Origin: Clostridia bacterium
GTDB taxonomy: Bacteria > Bacillota > Clostridia > Christensenellales > Aristaeellaceae
Direction: 5' to 3'
Length of the DNA stretch: 32,759 nt
Assembly (NCBI GenBank): GCA_017443295.1
Contig: JAFSNT010000001.1
Coordinates: 1 to 32,759, forward strand
Shown here: piece after piece, positions 42-29,886 of the stretch
Position numbering within the stretch: the first letter of the stretch is position 1
Layout: every line of letters begins with the position of its first letter
Program-made: the position numbers and the translations under genes
The notes under the pieces: model-generated
The model's database searches: none
Told to the model about the DNA's origin: nothing
The model's input: only the letters and a program-made list of their open reading frames with translations

Positions 42-59
42 TCTCGTTTTACGATAAAA
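42..59 (+). repeat. Left copy of terminal inverted repeat
   Basis: TTTTACGATAAAA at 47-59 is the exact reverse complement of 29869-29881. The flanking TCTC at 42-45 is matched by GAGA at 29883-29886, with one mismatch between. It is read as the left attachment half-site of the putative element. Confidence 0.5.
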
Positions 60-66
60 ATAGCCT

Positions 67-76
67 CCCACGCTTA
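67..76 (+). repeat. CCCACGCTTA motif near left end
   Basis: The same ten bases occur at 28140-28149, and their reverse complement at 28211-28220, on both sides of the serine recombinase promoter. Here the motif lies 7 bases inside the putative left end. It may be a recombinase or repressor binding site shared by the end and the promoter. Confidence 0.4.
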
Positions 77-142
77 TAATACATGTTCATTATACCAAAG
101 TATCTCTTAAAAGAAAAGCATTGATTTGTGGAGGAAATAGGA

Positions 143-277
143 ATGGACATGTACTTTGCTCAGTTCAATATGGATACCGGATGTGTTGATGCATGGCTGA
201 TAGATGGGTCGATTGTTTCGATTAACTGTACCGCTGTGGAACGGGTAGAGGCTGATAATCTATATCAGCGTGAGTAA
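143..277 (+). pseudogene. Truncated DUF6061-like small protein
   Basis: A 44-residue ORF starts at ATG 143 behind a good ribosome binding site (GTGGAGGAAATAG, 128-140). The translation contains FNMDTGCVDAW, DGSIVSINC and AVERVEADNLYQRE, which match my recollection of the N-terminal half of DUF6061 proteins. Those are short proteins of unknown function common in Clostridia accessory DNA; they usually run about 80 residues and continue past the YQRSEL region. This ORF stops at that point, and an IS5-family remnant begins shortly after, so truncation by insertion and decay is likely. The family match is from memory. Confidence 0.4.
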
Positions 278-311
278 CTAGAATGTGTTTCTAAAAGTAT
301 ACCCGCCTGCA

Positions 312-558
312 TTATGCAAGAAGTATGCGAATACAGGCCAGATGGACAAAAGCCAGAAAACGGTCAGCGAGCTTATCATAGCGGGTAGCGACGCGGCGAA
401 ATTCTTTCAGTTTCAAGAAAAAGGTCTCTACCAAATGCCGTTCGGCACTGTGAAATCTTTTCTGTAAATGTCGGTCTTCCGTGATACGACCAAGATTGGA
501 TGGGGCTGAACGGCAGGTTCTGCCGTTCAGCTCTTGATAACAGTTCTACCAGAATCAT
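312..558 (-). pseudogene. IS5-family transposase C-terminal remnant
   Basis: The minus-strand frame ending at 312-314 (TAA) reads ...EDRHLQKRFHSAERHLVE, then TFFLKLKEFRRVATRYDKLA, then DRFLAFVHLACIRILLA. This is the characteristic C-terminus of IS5-family (IS427/IS1031 group) DDE transposases: the ERHLVExFFxKLKxFRRVATRYDK block holds the catalytic glutamate. About 75-80 residues survive. The reading frame meets a stop near 556, exactly where the left arm of a 28-bp palindrome begins, so the N-terminal two thirds with both catalytic aspartates are gone. It has no ATG and cannot encode a working transposase. Confidence 0.8.
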
Positions 559-628
559 CCAGATCTGTCAAGGGCGCCCGCGCAGCGGGCGTTCAGTTTA
601 CCCTTGACGGATCTGGATGATTCTGGTA
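547..628. repeat. 28-bp inverted repeat between two IS remnants
   Basis: Positions 547-574 and 601-628 are inverted copies of 28 bp with one mismatch. The 26-base centre carries its own GC hairpin (CGCCCGC/GCGGGCG). The right arm ends exactly at the stop codon of the IS256-type transposase. It is either the 3' end and terminator of that IS or a hybrid junction with the IS5 remnant. No poly-T tract is present on either side. Confidence 0.7.
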
Positions 629-1351
629 TCAGTCGGGCAGCCGACCGTCATACATAATGGCCAGTTCGCCGTAAACCTTACCCCAGTTGTGGATCGGCAT
701 TGTCCATTTCTTCGTAGCTTCAAACGTGGAAAGATAAAGTGCCTTCAGCAAGGCAGTGTCGCTGGGAAACACGCTGCGCTGGCTGTTCAGCCGACGGTAC
801 GTGGAATTCAGGCTTTCAATTGCATTGGTGGTGTAGATCACTGTCCGCACATCCTTGGAGAACTTGAAGATCGGGCTGACAGCGTCCCAGTTGTCGTACC
901 AGCGCTTCATGGCTCGGGGATATTTCTCCTGCCATTTCTCTGTGACTTCATCCAGCGCTTCCCGGCCTTCCTGCTCGGACGGCGCGTTGTAGATCATTTT
1001 CAGGTCATTGGCGAATGCCTTCCGGTCCTTGTCCGACACATATTTCAGCGTGTTGCGTACCTGGTGGACAATGCAGCGTTGGGATTCAGTCTGGGGATAC
1101 GCGGCGGCGATATACCCGTTCCGGGCGTCGTCGCTGTCGGAACGCTCGGACTTCTCATACCCCAGGTGCTCATCCATCTCTGCTTCCATCATTTCCTTGA
1201 TGGTGCCGCCTGACAGATCTTTCAGCGCTTCCTGTATGTCCGCGGCGCTTTCGATGTTGTATTCCTGCAGCAATCCCTGGATGATGTTCCGTTTCCCTTC
1301 CGTCATTGGTCCCGGTTTGTAATACAGTGCCATTTTCGTTGATATGACCAA
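629..1351 (-). pseudogene. IS256-family (Mutator-like) transposase, internally deleted
   Basis: The 240-residue product matches both ends of IS256-type transposases. The N-terminus shows EALKDLSGGTIKEMMEAEMD then EHLGYEKSERSDSDDARNGY. The C-terminal half shows SQRCIVHQVRNTLKYVSDKD, VRTVIYTTNAIESLNSTYRR and ATKKWTMPIHNWGK. Intact family members have about 400 residues. Here NGY is followed directly by IAAAYPQTE, so roughly 150 residues are missing, including the first two catalytic aspartates; the reading frame is kept across the junction. The C-terminal glutamate (NAIES) remains. The protein cannot catalyse transposition by itself. Possible starts are 1351, 1333 and 1303; none has a clear ribosome binding site. 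Confidence 0.85.
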
Positions 1352-1673
1352 AAATGCCCAGGATAAGATTATCCGCCGGGATGAATTGGGCCTATAACAG
1401 CAGGCTGCTCAAAGTGAATACGATTATATCCAACCACCATATTCAGCGCGAAAATTCGGAGAATCCGATGGCGAGGATGAAAAGTTTTGTTTCAATAAAT
1501 TCGGAGTAAAAAACATAAAATTACGGATAATTAATAGTAAAAATAAAGTAAATGGTAAAAAAGAGGCAAATACACACAAAAAATGCGTTTTTTACATTGA
1601 AAAACAATAGGGAAAATGTTTTAATATAAGTGAAACAGTGCTTGAATAATTCGAGGAAAGGGGAAAAGAACCT
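1352..1673. promoter_or_regulatory. Leader region of the glycan locus with a candidate promoter
   Basis: This AT-rich, non-coding stretch precedes the first sugar gene. A candidate promoter has TTGAAA at 1597-1602 and TTAATA/TAATAT at 1621-1627, with 18-19 bp spacing. Short related motifs recur upstream: AATTCGGAG twice (about 1455 and 1500), the first continuing into the dyad CGGAGAATCCG, and ATTACGGATAATT at about 1521. These could be operator sites, for instance for the ArsR-type regulator encoded at 16508. The ribosome binding site of the next gene (GAGGAAAGGGG) lies at 1653-1663. Confidence 0.35.
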
Positions 1674-4499
1674 GTGAAAAACAAAATGCGGTTTCAGCGG
1701 TACGCTTTTCTGCTGATCATTCTTCTGCTTTTATCCCTTTCCGGTGCGGCCCAGGCCGATGGGGGAATGGAAAACTATTCGGCTTATTTGGAAGCGTGGG
1801 GCGGAAAAGAACAGGTCACGGCGTCTTTTCCACTGTATACCTCGGAAGGAAAGGCGTTCAGCGAAGGGGCTTCTTTTACGTTTTCTTTTTCCGCCCCGCA
1901 GGATATGTTCGGCTATCCGGTTTTTACGTATCGCGTGACGGGAAACAACATTTTGGATAACGCTTATTCTCTGCTGCTGGATGGAGAAACGCCCTATCAG
2001 GAGTGCGGAGCGCTCAAGCTGGAAAGCCAATGGCTGATGAACGGCCCCTTTGAAAAAGACCGGTACGGCAACGAAGTGGTGAGCATGCCCATCAAGGACA
2101 CGGGCGTTCTTCAATGCCGGATGCTGGGCAAGGCCGGGCTTTACAGCCGGGGCATGGGATTATACCTGACGGCGGGAGAACATGAAATCACCCTCCTTTG
2201 CCGGGAAGGGCCCTTTGAACTGTACAGCGTCACCTTGGAAACGGATATTGTCCCCCAAGCGCAGGCAGCTCAGGGAAGCTTGGCTGGCAGCGGCATCATT
2301 ACGATTCAGGCCGAAAACGTGCCCGCCCGGAATAACCCCAACGTGCGGCCCGCGGCGGATTATGATCTTCGGCTGACCCCGTACAGCAATCAGGAAAAGG
2401 TGATCAATTATATTGAGGATATTTCCTATCACTACGCTCTGGACGTGCTGACCTATGATTTTTCCGTGGCGGAGGAAGGGTTTTATGGCCTGGCCCTGCG
2501 CCTGCGGCAGGCGGAGCTGGCCAATTTTCCGGTGTTCCGCACCTTCTATGTGGATGGGAAAATTCCTTCCCCAGCTTTTATGGACGCGGCGTTTTCCTAC
2601 TGCCTGAATTTTGAAAACCAAATGGTAAAGGATGAAAATGGGGAGCCCGCTCTTGTGTATCTGACGGCTGGCAACCATACCCTGACCATTCAAACCTCCC
2701 TGGATCCCGTCCGCCCCGCCGTGCTGCAATTGAACCGCATCTCGGATGAAATGGCGGCCCTGGCCCTGGATATTACCAAAATTACCGGCGGGAATACCGA
2801 TTTTTTCCGGGATTTCAGTCTGGCGGATTTTGATTTCCACATCGCGGAGGATTTGGCCCGATGGATTGGCGAATTGGAGGAGGTTCGTTCTTTCCTTCGC
2901 GGCGTGGCTGGAACAGAAGGAAGAATCGGGGCCCTGAGCAATCTGGATATGGCGATTGATACTTTGGAATTGCTTTCTCAAAAGCCCGATGATCTGCCTA
3001 AAAAACTGGGCCAGTTCAGTCAGGGCGCGTCCTCAGCCCGGTCCTTCCTGGTGAATATGACCGAAAGCCTGCAAAACAGCGGCATGGGCCTGGACAGCGT
3101 TCATTTTTATACCGATGCCGCTTTGCTGCCCCAAACCCCCAACGCGGGAGAACAGCTCAGCGCCGCCGCCCAGCGCTTTGGGGCGTCCTTTGGGGATCAG
3201 GGCTACGCCGCGGGTAACGAAATAGAAGAAGGCACCCTTCAGGTGTGGGTGAACCGGCCCCGGCAGTACCTGGAAATTTTGCAGCGCATGGCGGACACCT
3301 CCTTTACCCCCCAGACCGGCGTGAAGGTGGATTTTTCCATCATGCCGGATGAAAGCAAGCTGGTGCTGGCCAACGCCTCCGGCAGCGCGCCGGATGTGGC
3401 CCTGGGGGTATCCTCGGGCCGTACCTACGATCTGGCGGTGCGCGGGGCGCTGAAAAACTTGCGGGACTATGCGAATTTAAACGAAGTGGGCCGCTGGTTC
3501 CCCGCGGGGCTGCTGATTCCCGGGGTGTGCGACGAGGGCCTGTATGCCCTGCCGGAAACCTTCAATTTCTATGTACTGTTTTACCGCAAGGACATTTTGG
3601 AAAACATCGGCGTTTCCGTACCGGACAGCTATGAGGATGTGCTCGCCCTGCTGCCCACCCTGCATCGGTTTGGCCTGAATTACAACAATTTCGTGGCCAA
3701 CGTGATCGGCTACAAGAGCTTTTCCATCACCACGCCCTTCCTTTTCCAGGCGGGGGGCAGGCTGTACGAAAACGGAAACATCCATATCCTGCTGGACGAA
3801 CCGGAGGCGATCCGGGGCCTGCAAACCCTGACGGACAGCTTCATCATCTACGATATGGATTATGAAATCAATTCCTTTTATCAATCCTTCCGGGACGGAA
3901 CCCTGCCCATCGGCACGGCCAATTACGCCATGTACAATCTGCTTATGAACGCGGCGCCGGAGCTAAGTGACCGCTGGGGCATTGCCCTGTACCCTGGGCT
4001 TACGGATGAAAACGGCGCTGTGCAGCGCTGGACCAGCGGGGCGGAGCAAAGCTGTTTCATCTTTTCCTCCACGAAAATGGAAGCGGAAGCCTGGCAGTTT
4101 TTGACCTGGTGGATGAGCGAGGAAATCCAGACGGAGTTTGCCTTCACCCTCCAATCCACCTTGGGCAACGAATATTTGTGGAACAGCGCTAATACGGCGG
4201 CGTTTGCCAATTCTCCCTGGCCCACGGAGCACAAGAAAATCATTGCCGAGCAAATGCAGTGGATCCTGGAAGCGCCCCGGGTGCCTGGCAGCTACATGGT
4301 GGAGCGGGAAATATCCAACGCCATCAACGCGGTTTGCCTGGAGGGCAAAAATCTGCGGGAAGCCCTGGATGAAGCGATGAAGCGCATCGACCGGGAAGTG
4401 GAAAGGAAGCTGGAGGAATTCGGGCGCATGGAAAACGGGCGCTTGACCGCCCCCTTCCTGGCTCCCGATCTGGACACGGTAAAGGAGTGGCTGCAATGA
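1674..4499 (+). CDS. Large extracellular solute-binding protein (family 1) with N-terminal extension
   Basis: The 941-residue product is about twice the length of a normal sugar-binding protein. Residues 1-28 form a signal peptide ending in GAAQA, without a lipobox cysteine. Residues about 30-360 look like two beta-rich, CBM-like modules, followed by a helical linker (about 365-490). A family 1 solute-binding domain covers about 525-900, with typical blocks such as [29 protein letters not shown] and [14 protein letters not shown]. It should capture an oligosaccharide for the permeases downstream. The GTG start at 1674 is chosen for its spacing to GAGGAAAGGGG; ATG 1686 is an alternative. The stop overlaps the next ATG by four bases (ATGA). 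Ligand unknown. Confidence 0.85.
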
Positions 4500-5413
4500 T
4501 GAAAACAAAGCCCTTGGCCGCTCCCGCGCGGCGTCCCCAAAGCATCCGGGCTGCCTATGCGTTCATCGCCCCGTATGCGCTTTTATTCTCCCTGTTCATC
4601 GTGATCCCGGTGGCGATTGCTATTGGCCTGTCCTTTACCAACTTCAACACCATCCAAATGCCCTCCTTCGTGGGCTTCATGAATTATGTGAATCTGCTCA
4701 CCCGGGACGCCATTTTCATGCAGTACGTGCTGCCCAACACCATTCTGTTCGCGGTGATCGTGGGGCCGGGGGGCTATGTGCTCAGCTTTTTTCTGGCCTG
4801 GTGCTTAAGCCAGATTTCCAAGGGCCCCCGCACGGTGCTGGCGCTGCTTTTGTACAGCCCCTCCATGACCAGCGGCGTGGCCATGACGGTGGTATGGCGC
4901 ATCCTGTTCAGCGGCGACGAGCGGGGCTATCTGAACGCGCTGCTTTTGAATCTGGGCTGGATCAGCGAGCCCATCGCGTTTTTGCAGTCCTCCGAATATC
5001 TGATGCCCGTCATGATCGTGGTGGCCCTGTGGAGCAGTATGGGGGTGGGGTTCCTGGCCATGCTGGCGGGCATGATGAACATTGATGAAAGTATGTACGA
5101 GGCGGGTTCCATCGACGGCATCCGAAACCGGCTGCAGGAAGTATTCTATATCACCATTCCCCTCATGAAGCCCCAAATGCTTTTTGGTATGGTGATGGCG
5201 GTGGTGAACACCTTCCAGGTGGGCTACATCGGCGTCAGCCTGTCCGGGGCCAATCCCACGCCCCAGTACGCGGGCCAGTTGATCGTGAACCTCATCGAGG
5301 ATTACGGCTTTATCCGCTATGAAATGGGCTACGCCTCCGCGGCCTCCGTGGTGCTGCTGATTTTGATTTACGTGATCACCAAGCAGTCCGGCAAAATGTT
5401 CAAGGAAGACTGA
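4496..5413 (+). CDS. Sugar ABC transporter permease, MalF type
   Basis: This roughly 305-residue inner membrane protein has six predicted helices, the first at about residues 22-44. The ABC permease EAA loop reads [20 protein letters not shown] near residue 200; this is the contact point for the transport ATPase. The ATG at 4496 overlaps the upstream stop and lies 8 bases after AAAGGAG (4481-4487). An upstream GTG at 4487 overlaps that ribosome binding site and is rejected. It probably pairs with the upstream large binding protein. Its MalG-type partner could be the permease at 13292 or the one at 10511. No ATPase gene is present. Confidence 0.9.
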
Positions 5414-5429
5414 GAAAGGAGAAGGCTGC

Positions 5430-7454
5430 ATGAAAAGAATGCTTCTGCTTTGGGCGGCCCTCATCTGCCTTCTTCTTTCGCCCTTTCAGGCGCTGGCGGA
5501 TGAAGCGCCGTATTATACCCTCACCGAAACCTACGACGGGAAGCGGGTGTATTCCCAGAACGGCTATCTGCCGGAAAAAACCTATTACGAATTTGACGAA
5601 AAAGCCCTGAAACGCCCGGCGGACCTGTTTGTGGATGGGGGCACCCTGTATATTTCCGACGAGGGCAACAAGCGGGTGATCCAATGCACCCTGGATGGCG
5701 AACTGATCCGGGTGATCGGGGATAAAAAGCTGTTTTCCACCCCCGCTGGGATCTATGCCCGGAACGGGAAGCTGTATGTGTGCGACAGCAAGGAAGATGC
5801 CGTATTTGTGTTTGATACGGATTCCGGCGAATTGCTGCTGACCTTAACGCATCCCGGCACCGCCCTGTACGGCCAGAAGAACGCCTTCCGCCCCCTGAAA
5901 ATCGCGGTGGACGAGGCGGGCGGCATGTACGTGATCAGCAAGGGCAACACCAACGGCATCGCCCAGTTCAGCGCGGATGGCGCCTTCCTGGGGTACTTTG
6001 GGGCCAACAGCACGGAAATTTCCTTAGAGGAAAAAATCAAGCGCCTCACCTATACCCAGGAGCAATTGAATATGCTCAAAAAGAACGTGCCTTCCACCCC
6101 CACCTCCCTGGCCATGGATGCGCGGGGCCTGGTGTACACAGTGACCACCGGTTCGGAAACGGTGAAGCGCCTGAGCATGAGCGGGCTCAACATCATGCCC
6201 GCCGTGTCCTGGGGCTTCCAGAACGCCGTGGATATTGCGGTGAGCAAGGAAGAAACCGTTTTTGTGGTGAATGAGCTGGGCTCTATCATGGAATATACCC
6301 GGGATGGGCGGGTGCTGTTCTATTTCGGCGGCGAGGATTTGGACCGCACCCGCATCGGCCTGTTCGTGTCCACCGTGGCCATCGACGTGGACGATGAAGG
6401 CAGGCTTTATGTGCTGGACCGGGACAAGGCCCTGGTGCAGCGCTTTGAAATCACCGAATACGCGTCCTTGGTGCATGAAGCTTTGGCGCTTTATCAGGAA
6501 GGGCTGTATGCCCCTAGCCAGGAACCCTGGGAAAAAGTGATACGCCTGAACAGCATGTTCGATTATGCCCAGATGGGCCTGGGCAAGGCCTATTACAAGC
6601 TGGAACGTTATGACGACGCCCTGAAAGCCTTCCGCCTGGGCGGCGATAAGGCCGGCTACAGCGACGCTTACTGGGAAGTGCGCAACGCCTGGGCCCAGCA
6701 AAATATCCTGTGGCTGATTTTCGGCATTGCCGGGTTGATCCTTCTTCGGAAATTATGGAAGGTGTTGAAAACCAAATGGCGGCCCGCGGCATGTTTTTCC
6801 CAGGCCGTCGGGCGGGGAATGGATCAAAAGCTTCTCCGGGAAATCCGCTTTATGGGCTATTTTCCCCGAAATCCGGCGGACGCCTATTATGGCGTGCGGT
6901 TTGAAAACAAGGTGTCCGTGCTGTCCGCATCCATTCTGTACGGGGCCATGTTCCTGATTTTCCTGGTGAACAAATACGCCTGCGGCTTCCTGTTCAAGAG
7001 CGTGCAGGACGGGCACTACGAAATCATGAACGACGTGGTGCTGGTGATCGGAGGCCTGCTGCTGTTCCTGGTTTCCTGCAACCTGATCTGCTCCATCCGG
7101 GACGGGGAGGGCACCTTCAAGCAGATGTACTGTGGCCTGGCCTACGCCCTCACTCCCTACATCGTGCTTACCCCCATCGTGTTCGGCCTGTCCTTCGTGC
7201 TTACCTATAACGAGGCTTTCATCATCACATTGCTGAACATCATTTCCCTGGCCGGCTGCTTCATCCTGATCGTGATGATGGTGAAAACATTGCAAAACTA
7301 TTCCTTCCGGGAAACCATCGTGACGCTGCTGCTTTCCCTGTTCACCATGCTCATGATCGTGATTGCCCTGGTGATTGCGGCGGCACTGATCGCTCAATTG
7401 TGGGAATTCCTTTCCGGCGTTTGGAAGGAGGCGAGATTCTATTATGAAAGCTAA
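5430..7454 (+). CDS. Membrane protein with NHL-type propeller, TPR-like region and Yip1-like domain
   Basis: The 674-residue protein has several parts in order. A signal peptide (1-23, ending QALA) is followed by an NHL-type beta-propeller (about 60-345) with repeated blades such as PADLFVDGGTLYISDEGNKR and IDVDDEGRLYVLDRDKALVQ. A TPR-like helical pair (about 350-410, AQMGLGKAYYKLERYDDALK) precedes a transmembrane helix (about 426-445). A C-terminal Yip1-like multi-helix domain occupies about 490-670. The propeller and TPR should lie outside the membrane. Such genes occur beside DUF5696 and sugar ABC genes in Firmicutes (from memory), but their function is unknown. A scaffold or glycan sensor beside the transporter is my inference. 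It overlaps the next gene by 11 bases. Confidence 0.75.
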   Translation: MKRMLLLWAALICLLLSPFQALADEAPYYTLTETYDGKRVYSQNGYLPEKTYYEFDEKALKRPADLFVDGGTLYISDEGNKRVIQCTLDGELIRVIGDKKLFSTPAGIYARNGKLYVCDSKEDAVFVFDTDSGELLLTLTHPGTALYGQKNAFRPLKIAVDEAGGMYVISKGNTNGIAQFSADGAFLGYFGANSTEISLEEKIKRLTYTQEQLNMLKKNVPSTPTSLAMDARGLVYTVTTGSETVKRLSMSGLNIMPAVSWGFQNAVDIAVSKEETVFVVNELGSIMEYTRDGRVLFYFGGEDLDRTRIGLFVSTVAIDVDDEGRLYVLDRDKALVQRFEITEYASLVHEALALYQEGLYAPSQEPWEKVIRLNSMFDYAQMGLGKAYYKLERYDDALKAFRLGGDKAGYSDAYWEVRNAWAQQNILWLIFGIAGLILLRKLWKVLKTKWRPAACFSQAVGRGMDQKLLREIRFMGYFPRNPADAYYGVRFENKVSVLSASILYGAMFLIFLVNKYACGFLFKSVQDGHYEIMNDVVLVIGGLLLFLVSCNLICSIRDGEGTFKQMYCGLAYALTPYIVLTPIVFGLSFVLTYNEAFIITLLNIISLAGCFILIVMMVKTLQNYSFRETIVTLLLSLFTMLMIVIALVIAAALIAQLWEFLSGVWKEARFYYES

Positions 7455-11503: not shown

Positions 11504-11516
11504 CCCGATATCTTTG

Positions 11517-11548: not shown

Positions 11549-11591
11549 TGTCAGATATAGCAATACCAAGAACAAAAAAGGAGGTTTCCCC

Positions 11592-12932: not shown

Positions 12933-12935
12933 TCC

Positions 12936-13272: not shown

Positions 13273-13291
13273 TTACGGGAAGGACAACTCC

Positions 13292-19215: not shown

Positions 19216-19249
19216 GCAGGAAAAATGTTTGTGGGATGAAAGGCGAAAG

Positions 19250-19344: not shown

Positions 19345-19383
19345 AAAACGCAGCGACTTTCAATGCTTAATGAGGTGAAAAGC

Positions 19384-21606: not shown

Positions 21607-21824
21607 AATGTGAATAAAGCTGGAATTGTCAGCTAATTGGCTCCCATATAAAAAAACAAAAAGCTCAACGGTAAAACGCCAACCGTGAAATAGACATAAT
21701 TCGGAATAGACACAAATGAAAAAGCAGAGCCATACATTCAGACAGTATAAACGCCGATCTATAACCCTTCATTCGACCCATTTCATAGATTTCATTGACA
21801 GAAAGCATTCCGATCAACGCAACG

Positions 21825-22331
21825 ATGAAGTACGAAATTATCTATTTGAGTAAATCAGGAAATACCGCCAAAGTGGCCCGCGCAATTGCGTCGCGCTATC
21901 CTCAAACCCAATGCAGAATAGTGGATTTTGCAAAGGAAGAGCCTTCGCTGGACGCAGATATTTATCTCATAGGTTTTGGTGTGTATCGGGGTACCTGTCC
22001 TTTCTCATTGCTGAGCTTTCTTAGGAAATTGGAAGGAAAAACGATCATATTGTTTGGAACTGAAGCCATCAGCGCTGCCAGCCAGATCACAAAGCAGATA
22101 GAATACGTTATCCTGCCTTTCCTTTCGGAGCATTGCGCTTATAAAGGCATTTGCATTGTTCCCGGAAGTTTTTCCAAAGCGGGAATGGATTATCTCTGCA
22201 CTGCACTTCAGGTGCAAAACGATTCAGTCAAAGAGCAACAGCTTTACAACCTATACGCTGCTGCCGCCCATCGGCCTGATCAAATGGATTATGAAACAGT
22301 CCTGTCATATATTCAGAGCGCACTCGCATAG
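21825..22331 (+). CDS. Flavodoxin-like protein (BilS-like)
   Basis: The 168-residue product has a flavodoxin fold. An N-terminal strand and FMN phosphate loop (YLSKSGNTAKVARAI, residues 7-21) are followed by DADIYLIGFGVYRGTCPF and KTIILFGTEA. It resembles short flavodoxin family proteins such as BilS, which accompanies the bilirubin reductase BilR, but no bilR gene is in the window, so the role is open. The ATG at 21825 begins the conserved MKYEIIYLSKSGNT segment. An upstream TTG (21795) adds ten residues that do not look conserved. The ribosome binding site is weak. The codon usage is more AT-rich than the sugar locus, so it belongs with the mobility module or is separately acquired. Confidence 0.75.
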   Translation: MKYEIIYLSKSGNTAKVARAIASRYPQTQCRIVDFAKEEPSLDADIYLIGFGVYRGTCPFSLLSFLRKLEGKTIILFGTEAISAASQITKQIEYVILPFLSEHCAYKGICIVPGSFSKAGMDYLCTALQVQNDSVKEQQLYNLYAAAAHRPDQMDYETVLSYIQSALA

Positions 22332-22375
22332 AAAGCCATCGTGTGCGGTATTGCCATAAAAACCAAAGGAACTGC

Positions 22376-22480
22376 TCAAGATTGTTCTTTGACGCATTCC
22401 TCACATGCAATTCTGGCATTCAGCATAAACGTAAACTTGAACGGGCAATCTGCCATGCAATTGATAGCATCCAAATACAC
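22376..22480 (-). CDS. Candidate very short cysteine-rich protein
   Basis: The minus-strand frame ending TGA at 22376-22378 encodes MADCPFKFTFMLNARIACEE then CVKEQS from ATG 22456 (26 residues), or 34 residues from GTG 22480. It has two Cys pairs, CxxxC and CxxC, compatible with a small zinc-binding knuckle. The frame stays open to about 22560 without a clear start. No ribosome binding site is seen. It may be a small gene, the end of a broken one, or chance. Confidence 0.25.
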   Translation of the reverse strand: MYLDAINCMADCPFKFTFMLNARIACEECVKEQS

Positions 22481-22564
22481 CGCTCGGTGTGAAGGCCGCA
22501 GCGGCGAAAAAGAATCCAAACGTGGTTTTAAAGAAATGTGGGGAACGGATAACTCGGAAGATGA

Positions 22565-23767
22565 TTAAGAAATCATTATTGGAATCAGATTGCTTTGGGG
22601 AAGCTTCGCATGCTTGCACTTTAATATCGCATGGATTGCAGCATCCGTGATTTTCCAGGTATCGCAGGGATCATTCTCCGCAAATGTTTCCACCCAGGCT
22701 GTGCCTTCCTCCAGATTGAATCGAATCTCACCCCACTCCCCGCCGTTGTCTACCTGATAAGCGTAGATAGCGGCGGCTATTTTTTTGCCTTCGCGGTGAG
22801 TGGAGATCTGTTTGAGGCGGATGCAATGAAGCTGACCAAACTTCACCAGTTCCAGAATCAGGTTTTCTACGGCACGTTTATAGGCTCGTTCAGCGCTGGA
22901 CGCGCCGCTGCCTTCAAACAATTCGGCCAGTTTCTCAAAGGACATCTGCATTTTCATATCGCTGACTCGGCCACAGCGCATACAGATGGCGTTGCGCTGT
23001 TCCAGCAGCGTCTGATCCCGGTAAGAAAGTTTATCAAAGGCTTTGTCAACATTTTCAGCTTTTACCCCAGCCCTTAGGATACCGATATAATCCCAATGAT
23101 CCGGGATCAGTTCGTCTTCCTGTTCCTTGCTTTCACTTTCATCGTTGAGCTGCACAGGCACCCGCCTGTTGCGCTGCCGATAGGCGGCTGCTAACTTTTC
23201 GGTAGCCGTTTTCTCCGCGCAGCCATCCTGTGCCGCAAAAAGCCGGATCGTCTCTTTTGTATTGCCGTGGCAGTCTGCAAATATCTGCATGATGCGCCGG
23301 GCATCCTTGTATTCCTGCAAAGAATCGAAGGAATGATATTCTTCCCCCATGCGAAACCGAAGCAGCGCATCGGTAATATATCTGTGAATGTAGGTGATAA
23401 AGGCTGTTCCCCTGCCGGGATCATATGAGGGAAACCGCTGCAATACTTCGATCCGGCATTCCAGCTTCAAATCCATGAAGTGCTCCGGGTGAATCCGTTC
23501 CCCTTCGCCGGTAAGGAAGGTGTTGATCCGGTCGTTAAAATATTCCTCATTCTCATGGAGATAAAAGAAGACGTATTTCAGCTCATGGGTCTCCAGGGCT
23601 AAACGGATGTATTCATTCGTATTGCCCGACGGCAAACCGGGCGGAACCGGGATCAGCTGATATTCTCTGAACGCATCCTGCATGGTCAGCTTTCCACGCT
23701 CCGCCTGGGATGCCCGAGGCATATAGCCTTCCAAATCCCAGGAATAATCCTTCAGTGTCTGTTCCAA
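22565..23767 (-). CDS. Sigma-70-like protein of the mobile module
   Basis: The 400-residue product contains a segment resembling sigma-70 region 2 (about 100-155). RFPSYDPGRGTAFITYIHRY followed by ITDALLRFRM parallels the YDPxRGxxFxTYxxxxI motif of sigma factors. An HTH-like stretch follows (about 165-190, GNTKETIRLFAAQDGCAEKT). Later parts (260-330) also look helical and DNA-binding. The function could be transcription control of the element's genes. The TTG start at 23767 is favoured because GGAGG lies 6 bases upstream and no ATG is near. The gene begins 12 bases after the DUF6076-like gene, same strand, so they form an operon. Family assignment is moderate. Confidence 0.55.
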   Translation of the reverse strand: MEQTLKDYSWDLEGYMPRASQAERGKLTMQDAFREYQLIPVPPGLPSGNTNEYIRLALETHELKYVFFYLHENEEYFNDRINTFLTGEGERIHPEHFMDLKLECRIEVLQRFPSYDPGRGTAFITYIHRYITDALLRFRMGEEYHSFDSLQEYKDARRIMQIFADCHGNTKETIRLFAAQDGCAEKTATEKLAAAYRQRNRRVPVQLNDESESKEQEDELIPDHWDYIGILRAGVKAENVDKAFDKLSYRDQTLLEQRNAICMRCGRVSDMKMQMSFEKLAELFEGSGASSAERAYKRAVENLILELVKFGQLHCIRLKQISTHREGKKIAAAIYAYQVDNGGEWGEIRFNLEEGTAWVETFAENDPCDTWKITDAAIHAILKCKHAKLPQSNLIPIMIS

Positions 23768-23779
23768 TTCCGCCTCCGT

Positions 23780-24901
23780 TTATGCGAGCATCTTTTGCGC
23801 TTCGGCTTTCAGCGCGTCCTGCGCCATTTCTTCCAGATAAGAACCTTTGGCATAGGCCAAATCCGCCTTGGCCCGCTGCTTCTTGTCCTTCGCCAGCTTC
23901 TTCATTGTTACCGCCAGCGCCGGATCAAGGGTACCTCGTTTCAGGCACTGGTCAATGGTATTCATGCGCCGGGTGTAAGGCGCGTTCAGCGGATGATCTT
24001 CCGCCAATTCCCGCGCCGCCCTTCCCCGCATATTGCCGATCACCCGGCACTTTCTGCCCATGGGATCGGTGGGGCAGATATCACTGCAATATTTCGTGTG
24101 CCGGGCGTCCGTGGTCAGGAACCACCGGCCGCAAATGGCACAGCGCTTCGGGGCATGACCTACAGAAAGCCCCTCAAAGAAATCAGCCCGCAGCATCCCG
24201 CCGAAAGAGACAAAGTGCATATGCTTTTTCATCTGCATCTGCCCGTTTTTCTGGTTCACACCAGCCGTATATTGAACGGTCACATTGGTCATGGACATCC
24301 AGGAATCCGTGCCGTCACCGATACGGAAATCCTCGGGGAAGGATTGGCTGAATTGGGTCAGATAGGCTTCTTTCGTGCGGGGTAAATCCTTGGCGTCCAG
24401 CTTATCAGCAAAAGGAGCTATATGTTCTTGCAGTATGGTGATGGCGTCATAATAATTCGCCAGGGTGGGAGCCAGTATGATCAATTCGCCTGCCGGGCCG
24501 TATTTCTTTTCCGTTTCCTCGTTGATCTGCCCGTTCAGTACGGCATTGCTGAAGGATCGTATTTTCTTGAAAGCGTCTACGCTGAATACCTGATCCAGCC
24601 GCTGATCAAATTTTGGATTTGCCAGGAATGTAAAGGGCTCATTTTGAGCGATCAGTTTCAGCAGAGAATGAGCGGCTGAACACGCGCTGTTCATGGCTGC
24701 TTTATCAGCGATGCTAGTGCGCAGCATGGTGTTGACCGAAGCAATCTTTCTGCACAGCGGCAGCGATTCTTCCAAAGCCTCTTTGGGGATGTTCATAGCC
24801 ATGCAAGCCACCATCCCAGCAGGCATAATCTTGTCCCGATACTGCACTGTATCACCGGAAAAAATCAAGGTGAGCATTCCGCTTTCTTTTTCTAAATTCA
24901 T
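23780..24901 (-). CDS. DUF6076-like protein with a C-terminal zinc-binding motif
   Basis: The 373-residue product has a long N-terminal region without recognised motifs and a C-terminal cysteine cluster (Cys254, Cys257, Cys272, Cys285). It reads CAICGRWFLTTDARHTKYCS followed by GRKCRVIG, which fits a zinc ribbon of the kind in DUF6076 proteins encoded on Clostridia conjugative and mobilizable elements. Biochemical function is unknown. The C-terminus (300-373) is helical and highly charged. The ATG is preceded by GAGGGG ten bases upstream. It is co-directional with the sigma-like gene and divergent from the DUF3847-relaxase operon. Confidence 0.6.
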   Translation of the reverse strand: MNLEKESGMLTLIFSGDTVQYRDKIMPAGMVACMAMNIPKEALEESLPLCRKIASVNTMLRTSIADKAAMNSACSAAHSLLKLIAQNEPFTFLANPKFDQRLDQVFSVDAFKKIRSFSNAVLNGQINEETEKKYGPAGELIILAPTLANYYDAITILQEHIAPFADKLDAKDLPRTKEAYLTQFSQSFPEDFRIGDGTDSWMSMTNVTVQYTAGVNQKNGQMQMKKHMHFVSFGGMLRADFFEGLSVGHAPKRCAICGRWFLTTDARHTKYCSDICPTDPMGRKCRVIGNMRGRAARELAEDHPLNAPYTRRMNTIDQCLKRGTLDPALAVTMKKLAKDKKQRAKADLAYAKGSYLEEMAQDALKAEAQKMLA

Positions 24902-25182
24902 GTTTTGTCGCCCCTCATTGCAAACATACGTTCCCTTTATTCATTATATATCAATTCTCTCAAAAAGGAAAGAGGTTCTGTCATGTTTTCTGTCGCGTTT
25001 TTCTGTCATGTTTTTAGCTTTCGCCTTGTCAGGCGTTTTTCATGTTTTTTACGAATTCGATCATAATAAAGGTGGAAAGGCAAATACGCCGCAAGTATCC
25101 AGCAGTCAGCGCAAAGGGCATCGGGCAACCGGTGCTTTTTGCATTGCCTGTTGGCGGCAATAGATTGGAGGTGAAAGAGAAT
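24902..25182. promoter_or_regulatory. Divergent intergenic region with candidate minus-strand promoter
   Basis: On the minus strand, TATAAT (24948-24943) sits about 45 bases before the DUF6076-like start in an AT-rich patch; the -35 is weak. The direct repeat TCTGTCATGTTTT occurs at about 24977 and 25001. The plus-strand half leads to the DUF3847 ribosome binding site (TGGAGGTG at 25167-25174). No further gene is seen. Confidence 0.4.
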
Positions 25183-25509
25183 ATGAGTAGCCAAATGGAC
25201 AAGCTGAAAGCGGCACAGGAAAAGACGCTGCAGAAACTGCACAAAGCCCAGGAGGAAGAAAAGCAGATTAGAAAACGGATGGCGGAATTGACGCGGAACG
25301 AGCGCACTCATCGGCTGTGTACCCGTGGCGGCTATCTGGAAAAGCTGCTGATCGAACCGGAACTTTTCACGGATGAGGATGTGTTTGCCTTCCTGGATTA
25401 CGCTTTGAACACGTCATATGTGCAAACCCGGCTTAATTCCATGCTGGAAAGCAAGCGGAAAGCGGCAGCGAAGGCCGAGGAAACCGAAGCCGGGGAATCG
25501 GCTATCTAA
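25183..25509 (+). CDS. DUF3847-family protein
   Basis: The 108-residue product begins with a charged coiled coil (about 5-45, MDKLKAAQEKTLQKLHKAQE). The family signature RNERTHRLCTRGGYLEKLL follows, then a helical end with DEDVFAFLDYAL. DUF3847 genes typically sit directly upstream of relaxase genes on Clostridia elements, as here, and may help at oriT; the role is not established. The ATG lies 8 bases after GGAGGTG. Confidence 0.85.
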   Translation: MSSQMDKLKAAQEKTLQKLHKAQEEEKQIRKRMAELTRNERTHRLCTRGGYLEKLLIEPELFTDEDVFAFLDYALNTSYVQTRLNSMLESKRKAAAKAEETEAGESAI

Positions 25510-25523
25510 GCACCCGGAGTTTA

Positions 25524-25633
25524 CGGAGGGCGCAATTATATGAACTTCGTTCATCCATTGCGCTCTCCGAGGGCCCCTGCGGGGAGCTCGATGGAGAAAA
25601 GCCTTTTGTTGGCTTTTCTCCATCAGCAGGGGC
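25524..25633. other. Candidate origin of transfer (oriT)
   Basis: Between DUF3847 and the relaxase lie three nested palindromes. First, 25524-25536 with 25557-25569 (13 bp, one mismatch). Second, inside it, 25540-25545 with 25549-25554. Third, 25590-25603 with 25611-25624 (14 bp, perfect), extended by 25573-25580 with 25626-25633 (8 bp, perfect). The minus strand of the first left arm contains TGCGCCCT (25534-25527), the core of the nic region used by RSF1010-type (MobQ) relaxases. Position, structure and core agree with an oriT, which is normally next to its relaxase gene. Confidence 0.6.
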
Positions 25634-25711
25634 GGCCCCCTGCGCCGATTGCATCGGCTACCCCCTAAAGACATTGAATTGGAACGATGAAAGGAAGGAG
25701 GCGAGGCACAC

Positions 25712-27349
25712 ATCCCGTGTCCCCATTTTAACATCACGGTCATCGCCCGTGGGAAGGTGAAGGGCAACTCCGTTATGGGCGCTGCCGCCTACCAATCCGG
25801 CGATAGGCTTTATTCCGAGTATGAACACGAATGGAAATCCGGCGACCATCTGGAAAGGATCGTCCATAAAGAAATCCTGCTGCCGCCTAACGCCCCGGAA
25901 AAATACCGGGACCGGGCGACGCTCTGGAACGCGGTGGATGATGTCGAGACAAAAGCCACAGCCCAGACCGCCCGGCGCATCATCATCGCTTTGCCTAAGG
26001 AATTGACCCGGGACCAAAACATCGACCTGATCCGCAATTACTGCCAAACATCCTTCGTGGATCGCGGTATGATTGCGGATTTTGCTGTTCATGACGACAA
26101 AGAAGGAAATCCACACGCCCATGTTTTATTGACCATGCGATCCTTAAATGAACAAGGAAAGTGGAATCCGAAGACCCGGACGGAATTCGTCCTGGACAAA
26201 AACGGTGAGCGTATCCAAACAGCCAACGGGAAATACAAACGCCGCTGTGTTAGTTGGGATGGCTGGAATGACCGAGGTAATTGTGAAATCTGGCGGCATG
26301 AATGGGAGGCCATGCAGAACGCTGCCTTGGAACAGGCTGGCAGAGCAGAAAGGGTCGATATGCGATCCTACGAGCGGCAGGGAATTGAACTTGTTCCCAC
26401 TGTTCATCTTGGCCCGGCCGCAACCGCTATGGAACGAAAAGGCATCCGCACTGATTTGGGCGATCATAACCGGGCTGTGAAGATTATCAATAGCCTGTTC
26501 GCCGCGATCAAGCGCGCCTTGAAAACCTTTGCGGAATGGCTGAGAGAAATAAATGAAGTTATCAGCGACCATGAGAAGATTGATGATCCTTCTTCTTTTC
26601 CGCTTTATGAGGTGCTGTTCGCCTACTATGACCTGCGGAAAAAGGAGCGCTGGCATTGGAATATCTACGCGCAGAACAAAACGGGCGCAAGGGATTTACA
26701 GACCCTTTCGCGGACAATCATTTTTCTTAAGGAACACAATATCAACACCATCAACGATCTGGCTGTGCTGATGACAAAAACCAGCGATAGAATCGGAGAA
26801 CTGAACGCTGCCAAGAAAACGAAAGAGCAGCGCATACGTGATATTGACGCCATCTTGGAAGCGGATAAGACCATCCGCGAGTTTGGCCCGATTTTGGAGA
26901 AGTACAATGGCATCTTCTTCAAGGACGCAAAAGAAAAATACAGGCAAAAACACACTGATGAGATCGAGAAGGTAAAGACGGCTCAACGGCTGCTTTACAA
27001 ACTGAAAGTCACCCTGCCCATCAACAAGAAAGCGCTCAAAGCCGAATCCTCCCGCCTCCGGGGCGAAGTGGAATCCATGCTGCCGGAACTGGAAACAGTC
27101 AAGGCTGAAATGGATCAGCTTAAAATCTTCCGTTCCCAGGTAAGGAAGGTATTGCCCGAAGCGCTTACGGTCAAGTATGAGGACGGAAAGAAATCCTTTC
27201 AAGATATGTCTGAGGAAATCCATAATAAGGATGAATTGCGTAAGCTGATGGAGGAATCCGCTGAACGCGCGATCCGACATGCAGAGGAACAGCGTCACAT
27301 ACAGCAAGAGCAGCGATATCGACAACAGAAACAGATAGGAGCTTTATGA
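25712..27349 (+). CDS. MobA/MobL-family relaxase (MobQ type)
   Basis: The relaxase nicks oriT and leads the DNA strand into a recipient. The N-terminal domain shows the family motifs CPHFNITVI, VMGAAAYQSGDRLYSEYEHE and the metal-binding GNPHAHVLLTMR (His-Ala-His). A long helical, partly coiled-coil C-terminus follows (about 250-545), rich in Glu, Lys and Arg. The conserved N-terminus IPCPHFNI extends upstream of the first standard start (GTG 25757), and the frame is open back to a stop at 25688. The codon where ATG is expected is ATC (25712), 10 bases after AAGGAGG. Either it starts at ATC or the gene has lost its start. It overlaps the next gene by ATGA. Confidence 0.85.
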   Translation: MPCPHFNITVIARGKVKGNSVMGAAAYQSGDRLYSEYEHEWKSGDHLERIVHKEILLPPNAPEKYRDRATLWNAVDDVETKATAQTARRIIIALPKELTRDQNIDLIRNYCQTSFVDRGMIADFAVHDDKEGNPHAHVLLTMRSLNEQGKWNPKTRTEFVLDKNGERIQTANGKYKRRCVSWDGWNDRGNCEIWRHEWEAMQNAALEQAGRAERVDMRSYERQGIELVPTVHLGPAATAMERKGIRTDLGDHNRAVKIINSLFAAIKRALKTFAEWLREINEVISDHEKIDDPSSFPLYEVLFAYYDLRKKERWHWNIYAQNKTGARDLQTLSRTIIFLKEHNINTINDLAVLMTKTSDRIGELNAAKKTKEQRIRDIDAILEADKTIREFGPILEKYNGIFFKDAKEKYRQKHTDEIEKVKTAQRLLYKLKVTLPINKKALKAESSRLRGEVESMLPELETVKAEMDQLKIFRSQVRKVLPEALTVKYEDGKKSFQDMSEEIHNKDELRKLMEESAERAIRHAEEQRHIQQEQRYRQQKQIGAL

Positions 27350-27744
27350 CCAAACAGGACAATCAAATCATGCGCAGCGCAAAGCTGCTGGTGCAGAAAG
27401 AGTGTGCCAATTATGTCAAGGGCACTTGCTTGCCGGAAGATCACCCTTGCCATGTGATCAATCCGGTTTATACGACGATCCACGACGGCGCTGTGGATTG
27501 TGACTATTTCCTAACCACTGTTCTTCCCTTACAATCCGAACTGAACACAGGCGTATGGCATGAGATTCTCCGGGAGGAAGCTCAGACAGGGGAGGGCTGG
27601 AAAGAGTGCGTCCGCTGTCACAAGCCTTTCATCCCCGGCAGTAACCGTCAGTGCTATTGCGTCGAGTGCGGAGCAGCGGCAAAACAGGCCGGGAACCGGG
27701 AAAAACAGCGCCGCCACCGGGAGCGCCAGAAAACAGTCATGTAA
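27346..27744 (+). CDS. Cys_rich_VLP-domain protein
   Basis: The 132-residue product carries the Cys_rich_VLP signature at about 10-65: CANYVKGTCLPEDHPC, then DCDYFLTTVLPLQSEL. A second cysteine cluster (CVRCHKPFIPGSNRQCYCVE followed by C) forms a likely zinc ribbon at about 88-110, with a basic tail. Such proteins commonly follow the relaxase on Clostridia mobilizable elements; the function is unknown, and DNA binding is inferred from the zinc cluster and basic end. Translation is likely coupled to the relaxase. Confidence 0.85.
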   Translation: MTKQDNQIMRSAKLLVQKECANYVKGTCLPEDHPCHVINPVYTTIHDGAVDCDYFLTTVLPLQSELNTGVWHEILREEAQTGEGWKECVRCHKPFIPGSNRQCYCVECGAAAKQAGNREKQRRHRERQKTVM

Positions 27745-27802
27745 CGTAACCCTTTAGAACGAAAAAAGTCCAGGAATATCAATGTTTCCCGGGTACCCCA
27801 TC

Positions 27803-27838
27803 AGGGCAGGACGATCTATTGACCGTCCTGCCCTTTTT
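27803..27838 (+). terminator. Rho-independent terminator after the relaxase operon
   Basis: An 11-bp perfect stem (27803-27813 with 27824-27834) with a 10-base loop is followed by TTTTC. It lies 58 bases after the Cys_rich_VLP stop and 25 before the next gene. Confidence 0.85.
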
Positions 27839-27862
27839 CATGAATAATAATGGAGGAATCAA

Positions 27863-28126
27863 ATGAAGAAAGAAGAGAAAGAGATTTATCGCCTGGAAGA
27901 CGTGTGGAACTGTTATGATTTTGAAAAAGATGTCGAGGGCTTCTATAAGGCTATGGAACCTTCCATAGAAAACACATCCTTTTATGCCACGGAAGAAGAC
28001 GGCTGCCTGTATTACTACTGCGGCAATACGTGCATTAAGGTTCACGAGCATTTTGCCGACCATGGCAATACCATGAACGATCTGCTTGAGAACGTGATCC
28101 TGTACGCCGCAAAAAAGACAGCCTAA
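27863..28126 (+). CDS. Small TnpW-like protein of the mobile element
   Basis: The 87-residue product has an acidic N-terminus and ends in CIKVHEHFADHGNTMNDLLE then NVILYAAKK. The last 30 residues resemble the end of TnpW-family proteins from Tn4451-type elements, where a short strand is followed by a TMxDLL helix. TnpW has no established function. The ATG is preceded by GGAGG (27852-27856). It stands alone between a terminator and the recombinase promoter. The assignment is tentative; otherwise hypothetical. Confidence 0.5.
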   Translation: MKKEEKEIYRLEDVWNCYDFEKDVEGFYKAMEPSIENTSFYATEEDGCLYYYCGNTCIKVHEHFADHGNTMNDLLENVILYAAKKTA

Positions 28127-28139
28127 GAAATGATGATAC

Positions 28140-28220
28140 CCCACGCTTACGATCTCCTGTACCGCACCCTTGCAGATTGATAGAAGGGATGGTATAATCA
28201 AGGCGTATTGTAAGCGTGGG
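28140..28220. promoter_or_regulatory. Serine recombinase promoter enclosed by an inverted repeat
   Basis: TTGCAG at 28170-28175 and TATAAT at 28193-28198, spaced exactly 17 bp, form a strong sigma-A promoter. It is enclosed by an 11-bp perfect inverted repeat: CCCACGCTTAC at 28140-28150 and its complement at 28210-28220. The outer arm falls near the expected transcript start. The arrangement suggests an operator for autoregulation. The arm sequence recurs at 67-76 near the left end. Confidence 0.7.
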
Positions 28221-28249
28221 TTGTTTCAAACAGAAGGAGGATTTACGTA

Positions 28250-29863
28250 ATGAAACAACCATACAATACCGCACTCTATATGAGGCTCAGCTGCGATGAT
28301 GAGAACTACGGCGACAGTGTCAGCATCGAAACGCAAAGACTTGTATTGACCGCTTTTGCCCGCGAGCAAGGATTCTTCATTGTGGACGAATACGTGGACG
28401 ATGGATGGTCAGGTACGAACTTTGAACGCCCTGGTTTTCAGCGGATGCTGAAAGACATTGAAGATGGCCGCGTAAACTGCGTCGTTGTCAAAGACCTTTC
28501 CCGTTTCGGTCGGGAACACGTGATGATGGGATACTACCTGGAGTTCTACTTTCCGGAGAAGAGAATCCGCTTCATTTCCATCACCGATAACGAGGACACG
28601 GAAAAAGGGCTTTCCGACATTGTGCCGGTGAAGAATCTGTTCAATGAATTTTTCGCACGCGATACAAGCCGGAAGGTCAAAGCCGCCCTTCGTGCCAAGC
28701 ACGCCGCAGGCGAGTTCACCGGCACCCATCCGCGCATAGGATACAAGAAGGACCCGGAACGGAAGAACCGGATCATCATCGACGAGGAAACCCGGTGGAT
28801 CGTGGAAATGATTTTCGATATGGCAGCACATGGGGCCGGATCGAAAAAGATTGCCAAAGAGCTGACAATGCAGAAAGTACCGACTCCCGGCTATCTGGAC
28901 TATCAGCGATACGGCACCTTCGCCAACGCCTATCGGGATGCTCCGCCCGAGAAAACCTATACCTGGACCAGTAACACCGTGAGCAGCATTCTGAAAGATG
29001 AGACTTACATTGGCAATACGATTCATTATCGCATCACCAATGTCTCCTATAAAAGCAAGAAGCACAGAGTTAATTCGCAGGATGTATGGTTCCGGGTGGA
29101 GGGGACACATGAGCCCATTGTTGACAAAGATGAGTTCTGGCAGGTACAGGAGCAGATCACCAATCGCCGCAGACCCATGAAGAATCAAACGATCCAGATT
29201 TTTTCCGGCCTTCTGAAATGCGCTGACTGCGGAAAGCACATGGCGCTGTTCCAAACGACGCAGAAAGTTCCCTATCGCTACTTTAACTGCAATACATACC
29301 GGATGTATGGGAAAAGCGCCGGAGCATGCACTTCTCATGCCATCAGGTATGACGTCCTCTATCAATATGTTCTCAGCCGCATCCAGCATTGGACGTATCA
29401 AGCCCGTCAGGATGACCAGTCATTGCTGGAAAAACTGGTGAACGCCACAAGCCAGGAGCAGAAGGCATCTTCCAGGAAATGGGCCGCCGAGCTGAAAAAG
29501 GCCGAAAAGCGCAAAGAGGAATTGGATCGCCGCTTCATGAAGGTTTACGAGGACTGGACGGATGGACGTATCTCCGAGAGCAATTTCCGGATGCTTTCGC
29601 AGAAGTATCAGGCGGAGCAGCAGGAAACAGAAGCGAAGATCGAACACTTGAAAGCGTCCATCGCGGCAGAGAAGCAGACCGCAGCCGATGCGGAAAAGTG
29701 GATTCGCCTGATCAAGAAGTATGGCACGCCTACCGAATTGACGGCTGAGCTTCTCAATACACTCATAGAAAAAATCCTGATCCATGAGCCTGTCAAAGTG
29801 ATGAAAGGACTCAAAGAACAGGAAATCGAAATCTTTTACCGCTTTGTCGGAAAAATCGACTGA
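28250..29863 (+). CDS. Large serine recombinase (TnpX type, with DUF4368-like C-terminus)
   Basis: The 537-residue site-specific recombinase should excise and insert the element. The N-terminal resolvase domain (about 5-150) has the catalytic serine at position 14 in YMRLSCDDE, plus DGWSGTNFERPGFQRMLKDI and VVVKDLSRFGRE. The recombinase domain (about 175-290) is followed by a zinc ribbon (CADCGKHM...YFNCNTYRMYGKSAGAC) at about 325-365, a coiled coil (about 390-500) and a C-terminal segment typical of TnpX relatives. All catalytic blocks are present, so it is likely functional. The ribosome binding site is AGGAGG at about 28234-28239. The inverted end repeat begins 5 bases after the stop. Confidence 0.95.
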   Translation: MKQPYNTALYMRLSCDDENYGDSVSIETQRLVLTAFAREQGFFIVDEYVDDGWSGTNFERPGFQRMLKDIEDGRVNCVVVKDLSRFGREHVMMGYYLEFYFPEKRIRFISITDNEDTEKGLSDIVPVKNLFNEFFARDTSRKVKAALRAKHAAGEFTGTHPRIGYKKDPERKNRIIIDEETRWIVEMIFDMAAHGAGSKKIAKELTMQKVPTPGYLDYQRYGTFANAYRDAPPEKTYTWTSNTVSSILKDETYIGNTIHYRITNVSYKSKKHRVNSQDVWFRVEGTHEPIVDKDEFWQVQEQITNRRRPMKNQTIQIFSGLLKCADCGKHMALFQTTQKVPYRYFNCNTYRMYGKSAGACTSHAIRYDVLYQYVLSRIQHWTYQARQDDQSLLEKLVNATSQEQKASSRKWAAELKKAEKRKEELDRRFMKVYEDWTDGRISESNFRMLSQKYQAEQQETEAKIEHLKASIAAEKQTAADAEKWIRLIKKYGTPTELTAELLNTLIEKILIHEPVKVMKGLKEQEIEIFYRFVGKID

Positions 29864-29868
29864 CACAA

Positions 29869-29886
29869 TTTTATCGTAAAAGGAGA
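29869..29886 (-). repeat. Right copy of terminal inverted repeat
   Basis: TTTTATCGTAAAA (29869-29881) is the exact reverse complement of 47-59. It lies between the recombinase stop and the fprA terminator and is read as the right attachment half-site. Confidence 0.55.

Follow-up and report, generated by a model that had tools for sequence, protein, structure and literature searches.

A contig of a Clostridia bacterium (JAFSNT010000001.1; 32,759 nucleotides, referred to below, at its full length, as the window) very probably carries a single integrative mobilizable element at positions 36-29894, with ends that are set by comparison between genomes. The element holds a glycan-utilization locus of ~20 kb together with a relaxase and a large serine recombinase. 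The evidence consists of an identical copy at another locus in a second species and of empty sites at which the flanks of each insertion meet. An initial annotation, made from the window alone, had proposed a mobilizable element with a glycan locus spanning 42-29886. The identical copy and the empty sites support one mobile unit; the proposed ends did not survive, the true ends lying at 36 and 29894, just outside the terminal repeats. The window is the entire contig C80 of metagenome bin G000 (86% complete, 7% contamination), and the genome set comprised 29 assemblies of the genus, with one genome per species.

Boundaries and target of the element

The following features define the element and its insertion site.

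36..29894, + strand: whole mobile element, 29,859 bp, based on the identical copy at another site in G008:C28 and on the empty sites
1..35, + strand: left half of the target hairpin repeat, host side of attachment site attL; leader CTTTATGGCTTTCTCGGAAGGGGGT and start of the 5' stem arm CTGGGGGGAA, the same leader standing beside uninterrupted stems in relatives
34..35, + strand: predicted crossover core AA of the left junction, within GGGGGAA 29-35, at the symmetry centre of the predicted joint
42..59, + strand: left inverted-repeat arm, putatively recombinase binding
29869..29886, + strand: right inverted-repeat arm, from sequence comparison
29893..29894, + strand: predicted crossover core AA of the right junction, within GGGGGAA 29888-29894
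29895..29929, + strand: right part of the target hairpin repeat, host side of attR, from comparison with relatives

The second copy is present in G008, another species of the genus, at a different locus. Contig G008:C28 (166,481 bases) carries window 1-29935 with four mismatches (29897, 29908, 29917 and 29933), all of which lie beyond the junction, within the right part of the target repeat or immediately after it. Between 36 and 29894, 29,859 of 29,859 bases are identical, and the host flanks of the element differ on both sides. Because the copies are identical while a resident flavodiiron-type gene to the right of the window is only 88-94% identical between G000 and G008, the element appears to be far younger than the split between these species. 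It behaves, on this evidence, as one mobile unit that probably jumped recently from one species to the other.

Each insertion has a counterpart without the element. The first 141 bases of the window are an exact overlap with the last 141 bases of contig G000:C3, presumably because neighbouring contigs from a de Bruijn assembler with k = 141 overlap by that length. Positions 1-1105 and 3878-8975 of C3 align at ~95.5% to G024:C15, ending at base 2781, and window 29869-32601 aligns at 92% to the same contig from base 2802 downward on the same strand. Since both flanks meet in G024 around one uninterrupted hairpin repeat, we regard this locus as the empty site. A junction of this kind had been proposed in the initial annotation as a check on the unit, and G024 supplies it, the C3 flank leading to the sequence after 29869 with only the hairpin repeat between. 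In G008, G018 and G016 the right flank of the window likewise adjoins a hairpin repeat. A second empty site is found in G018:C55, where both flanks of the G008 insertion are joined by a hairpin repeat; G024 has only the left flank of that site. Two side observations concern the left flank: C3 1105-3878 is a 2.8-kb stretch of G000 that is absent from the same place in G024, and the first base of the window is the very point at which the C3 and G008 flanks part, as would happen if both insertion sites were represented in the assembly graph of G000.

The target is an interspersed repeat made up of the leader TATGGCTTTCTCGGAAGGGGGT and a stem such as CTGGGGGGAACCTCTCTTTGG-cct-CCAAAGAGAGGTTCCCCCCAG, and insertion splits the 5' arm. 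Among the loci compared, 13 of 30 distinct leader copies (one mismatch at most) have a perfect stem of at least 12 pairs, and three of the other 17 are left ends of elements. The leader pattern (up to three mismatches) occurs in 28 of the 29 genomes and never in G028, with 47 copies in G000, 61 in G008 and 99 in G018 (1, 0 and 0 in the reversed controls) and only 2-11 in ten or so genomes. Element-type right ends were found at five places in three of the 29 genomes (the window, G008:C28, G008:C30, G000:C99 and G024:C20); in four of these, the right part of the repeat comes next. Left ends follow the leader at four places (G000:C3/C80, G008:C28, G008:C30 and G000:C148). Comparison thus shows integration of the whole unit, in two species, at the GGGGGAA position within the 5' arm of this repeat. 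Among relatives at ~72% (L085, L178, L179, L180, L181, L183 and L184), the right ends finish in ATTTTTATCGCTAAGT and a different G-rich hairpin follows (GGGGCTGAAKAAGCCCC), which may belong to the element or be a second kind of repeat target.

Both left junctions, in the window and in G008, read GGGGGGAA/GGCTTCTCTCG and both right junctions read AAAAGGAGATGGGGGAA/CC, so that comparison of the two insertions gives GGGGGAA as the sequence common to left (29-35) and right (29888-29894). When the ends are joined, the resulting 50-base joint, with AA at its centre, has 36 of 50 self-complementary positions; 2000 letter shuffles gave no more than 28. The shared GGGGGAA also includes GA, yet the symmetry centre of the joint is AA. 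The initial annotation had found no shared core dinucleotide; this point has to be revised.

The terminal inverted repeat is exactly as first annotated. Positions 47-59 (TTTTACGATAAAA) and 29869-29881 (TTTTATCGTAAAA) are perfect reverse complements, the extended arms (42-59 and 29869-29886) are complementary at 17 of 18 positions, and the right copy begins five bases after the recombinase stop, which ends at 29863; the left copy lies 46 bases from the contig end. A chance origin, which had been judged unlikely by rough calculation, can be rejected: in 300 dinucleotide-preserving shuffles of the end regions (2 x 200 bases) the longest inverted match was 11 bases and none reached 13. No third copy of the 13-bp repeat is present in the window, even allowing two mismatches. 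At least two such loose matches (two mismatches at most) occur in 13 of 100 shuffles of the whole window, and hence the loose count by itself is not striking.

Mobility backbone

The right part of the element contains the backbone, with the genes and sites predicted to move it.

21795..22331, + strand: flavodoxin-like protein (Flavodoxin_3), start of the right backbone
22565..23767, - strand: weakly sigma-70-like protein, below cut-off
23780..24901, - strand: DUF6076 protein, domain match
25042..25509, + strand: DUF3847 protein, domain match
25524..25624, + strand: candidate origin of transfer (oriT), two strong hairpins (25524-25569 and 25590-25624) before the relaxase
25757..27349, + strand: MobQ (MobA/MobL) relaxase, 208 bits against a cut-off of 200
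27346..27744, + strand: Cys_rich_VLP protein, domain match
27863..28126, + strand: 87-aa protein, with relatives just before the recombinase in several other loci
28250..29863, + strand: large serine recombinase with Resolvase, Recombinase, Zn ribbon and DUF4368 domains, frame intact, all four domains present

The DUF4368 match of the recombinase has an E value of 4.2e-22, and its best solved relative by sequence is TnpX (2mhc; E 3.5e-30, residues 7-117). In a DNA search of 308 genomes of the family (E <= 1e-60), matches were obtained in 10; identical genes occur only in G000 and G008, and the next-best relatives are at 72-73%. The identical recombinase is thus present at two sites, and more sites are obtained only if relatives bearing remnants are counted. 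As single-stranded DNA, the 231 bases preceding the relaxase form much more stable folds than shuffled sequences (z = -6.6). A conserved relaxase N-terminus (PCPHFNITVIARGK) lies in frame upstream of the first ATG, GTG or TTG, at 25712-25757, as also in L178, and translation may start at ATC or ATT. Our guess for the 87-aa protein is a directionality factor or regulator. No type IV secretion or conjugation-channel family was detected in the 29 open reading frames scanned with Pfam, which were taken from the 91 frames of at least 80 aa listed, most of them overlapping.

Cargo

The rest of the element is largely occupied by the glycan-utilization locus.

547..1351, strand not assigned: insertion-sequence debris at the left cargo edge, with 28-nt inverted repeats (547-574 and 601-628) and a shortened Mutator-type (IS256-like) transposase frame
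1410..21606, + strand: cargo, glycan-utilization locus (~20 kb), also in G015, G026 and G003, where the mobility module has no match
1674..4499, + strand: solute-binding protein with a long N-terminal extension (SBP_bac_8)
4487..5413, + strand: ABC permease (BPD_transp_1)
5430..7454, + strand: NHL-repeat/Yip1 membrane protein, domain match
7444..9561, + strand: DUF5696 protein, domain match
9558..10514, + strand: ABC permease (BPD_transp_1)
10511..11503, + strand: ABC permease (BPD_transp_1)
11496..12932, + strand: solute-binding protein (SBP_bac_1)
13292..14176, + strand: ABC permease (BPD_transp_1)
14198..16498, + strand: GH43 glycosidase, domain match
16508..17461, + strand: winged-helix regulator (HTH_20)
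17458..19215, + strand: GH2 glycosidase, domain match
19363..21606, + strand: GH43 glycosidase, domain match

The four permeases, two binding proteins and three glycosidases (two GH43 and one GH2) listed in the initial annotation are all borne out by these domain matches. We take the glycosidase families to suggest arabinose- or xylose-containing glycans as the substrate. The shortened transposase frame is on the minus strand and encodes 240 aa, the best stretch of which covers profile positions 241-377 of 379.

Relatives of the cargo are found in three other species. G015:C277 matches window 1410-12932 at 98.5% and G015:C266 matches 13290-21597 at 90-96%; the matches are at 87-88% in G026 and 68-81% in G003. 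Over window 1410-21597, identity to the G015 loci (L221 and L222) changes in steps (98.5, 96, 90 and 92%), a pattern pointing to mosaic recombination in the sugar locus. Searched with blastn, the three sugar loci gave no match to the right flank of the window, to C3 or to the mobility module, and their flanks, as far as compared (808 bases downstream for G015; little for G026), do not match each other. Nor does the recombinase gene have a match in these genomes at E <= 1e-60. The initial annotation had named a sugar locus at the same place without mobility genes as evidence that would count against the unit; by blastn of the flanks, these three loci sit elsewhere. They show a possible source of the cargo and do not refute the unit. 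Because the locus is found in these genomes without mobility-module matches and in unmatched surroundings, it is probably a widely kept or travelling unit of the genus that was here built into a mobile backbone.

The G+C content of the cargo (0.567) equals that of the right host flank (0.567), with 0.602 for C3 and 0.495-0.497 for the backbone parts. The host-like composition of the sugar genes, raised as a caveat in the initial annotation, is therefore real, and is explained by a cargo that equals the right host flank within a backbone that does not. Two intergenic stretches of the window are repetitive in the genus: 12935-13147 has many copies at ~71-86% identity and no Rfam match at the gathering score, and ~85-base parts of 31271-31447 recur many times, in places side by side.

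Relatives with other cargo

Element ends also enclose other genes. In G008:C30 (48717-64740), both ends lie 16 kb apart and only the last 47 residues of the recombinase are retained; the genes between (Wzz, CpsB/CapC, LytR, Bac_transf, four glycosyltransferases, EpsG, RmlD and RmlC) are those of a rhamnose-type exopolysaccharide. In the joined ends of this relative, 36 of 52 positions are symmetric. The corresponding empty site, in which both flanks surround a repeat, is present in G024:C17, and G000:C15 has both flanks with no repeat between. In G000:C99, where only the right end was located, this end and a recombinase remnant broken by stops accompany genes for a pectinesterase, a PF00144 serine hydrolase, an AraC-type regulator, a binding protein and two permeases, one of them just under the cut-off. 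Such relatives may have lost their recombinase after insertion or may move in trans. A further group (L163, L164, L166, L167 and L168), from isolates whose name Lapin we take to indicate rabbit gut, retains only the last 108 recombinase codons, with the same breakpoint in all five loci after a common ~90-bp terminator-like stretch, and keeps the right end; it looks like a non-autonomous derivative family of serine-recombinase elements.

Alternative explanations and model

Several observations weigh against a mobile unit with these ends and this target. The left flank rests on the 141-base contig overlap and on synteny and not on a single contig, and all G000 and G008 sequences are metagenome assemblies. 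C3 is joined to the right flank in only one (G024) of the 12 relatives whose right flank was fetched; in G017 the first 1.1 kb of C3 lies ~3.5 kb from the right flank, and the other 10 have no match to C3 longer than 60 bases, the overlap excluded. The right end in G024:C20 has no recognizable hairpin repeat after it, and the left ends in G008:C30 and G000:C148, having been retrieved by a query that included the leader, are not unbiased evidence of the target. The exact circular joint is absent from viral_contigs, and no joint with up to three mismatches was found in the 29 genus assemblies. Finally, transfer with the aid of a helper element is assumed.

Three other explanations were weighed. 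An assembly or binning artefact, in which the element belongs to one species only and was wrongly joined to the other, is very improbable. Both genomes are metagenome bins, with the contamination given above for G000, and the contig that forms the window breaks off on the left at exactly the base from which the C3 and G008 flanks differ; however, the G008 copy is embedded in a contig of 166 kb and its flanks are syntenic to G018, the window runs unbroken through the right junction into a flank 92% identical to G024, and the junctions occupy separate repeat copies, each marked by base differences of its own. We consider it slightly less probable still that a single interspecies move occurred by large-scale homologous recombination or transduction, the recombinase being no longer active. 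The absence of the circle from viral_contigs and the 29 assemblies would fit this, as would the loss of most of the recombinase in related copies; however, insertion at the same exact point of the repeat at two unrelated loci is what is expected of a site-specific recombinase, and the frame of this one is intact with all four domains. The least probable alternative is that mobility is confined to the right ~8 kb (about 21.6-29.9 kb) and the sugar locus next to it is resident DNA. This explanation would fit the host-like G+C content and the occurrence of the locus, with no mobility-module match, in G015, G026 and G003. Against it, the cargo moved together with the module at 100% identity, and the flanks in those three genomes, as far as compared, match neither each other, C3 nor the right flank. 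In G000 and G008, furthermore, 6.8 kb of the cargo has, outside the element and among the matches listed, only short intergenic repeats or partial matches at 69-71%. An empty site with a left break near 21.7 kb, which the initial annotation had set against its own proposal, was not seen: the left end is at 35/36 in both the G024 empty site and the G008 copy, ruling out an element confined to the right-hand part.

A mobile unit of 29.9 kb is thus the explanation we prefer, and the sequence data suggest how excision and transfer might proceed. The DUF4368/TnpX-like recombinase would pair attL with attR and cut at the AA core, freeing a circle with a symmetric attP and restoring the hairpin repeat. 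The MobQ relaxase would then nick the hairpin-rich candidate oriT (about 25524-25624), and the nicked strand would exit by way of a conjugation channel supplied by a helper element. Once in the recipient, attP would be joined by the recombinase to one of tens of hairpin-repeat copies. The cargo was probably captured into a smaller mobile backbone, perhaps with the aid of insertion sequences that left the debris at its left edge. A broader and more tentative possibility, which we think somewhat less probable than its converse, is that a lineage of serine-recombinase elements is specialized on this genus-wide repeat and carries whole carbohydrate loci (for glycan use, exopolysaccharide or pectin) from one species to another within what is presumably a ruminant-gut genus. 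Copies without a recombinase would be moved in trans by intact ones such as that in G008:C28, and insertions at neighbouring repeats would let the ends pick up resident loci as cargo.

These results matter since one comparison shows a way in which a gut bacterium can acquire a complete carbohydrate niche in a single step: it brings together the exact 29.9-kb unit, the two loci where it inserted, the empty counterpart of each and cargo relatives from other places in the genus. The large serine recombinase, a natural enzyme for which attP is predicted and attB belongs to a repeat family, should also be useful for studying target choice, and dispersed hairpin repeats may, as these data hint, offer mobile elements a safe harbour.

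Comparison with known systems

The comparisons that follow draw on excerpts of the cited papers. Most integrative mobilizable elements measure 5-15 kb, and resistance genes are present in a large share of those identified (PMC5704250). The description 'Tn4451-type' in the initial annotation holds only loosely: the recombinase is TnpX-like, the relaxase is of the MobQ type, and AA, not GA, is the predicted core. Like Tn4451 and Tn4453, the element has a TnpX-type large serine recombinase, a mobilization gene, no conjugation machinery of its own and low site specificity with a 2-bp core. It differs in having a MobQ in place of a MobV relaxase, a predicted AA in place of a GA core, sugar-utilization cargo in place of chloramphenicol resistance and a repeat-family target in place of 'numerous sites', and at 29.9 kb it is far larger than Tn4453 at 6.3 kb (PMC5704250). 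Tn6104 of Clostridioides difficile shares a TnpX-related recombinase, a 2-bp direct repeat, a mobA/mobL gene and, among its accessory genes, sigma-factor-like proteins and a transporter (PMC3158075). However, Tn6104 sits inside traG of a conjugative element (PMC5704250) and not in a dispersed hairpin repeat, and a glycosidase locus is not mentioned for it in the excerpted description (PMC3158075).

The recombinase family offers a further parallel. Large serine recombinases with DUF4368 are multi-targeting, and Cp36 and its kin share this architecture, the use of several targets and, for Cp36, a published AA core; the target motif of Cp36 is A-rich 5' and T-rich 3', in contrast to the G-rich interspersed hairpin repeat here, and other DUF4368 members with more complex target motifs have been noted (PMC10083194). 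We found no description in the open-access literature of a relaxase-bearing serine-recombinase element with a 20-kb ABC-transporter and glycosidase locus in a hairpin repeat family. Carbohydrate loci (polysaccharide utilization, capsule) are known as mobile cargo among the gut elements of ImmeDB, but the polysaccharide-utilization loci counted there are SusC/SusD loci of Bacteroidetes (PMC6907783), whereas the cargo here is of the ABC-transporter/GH43/GH2 kind in a Clostridia-type genus. Among known integrative mobilizable elements, therefore, this one is unusual in its cargo, its size and its targeting of a repeat.

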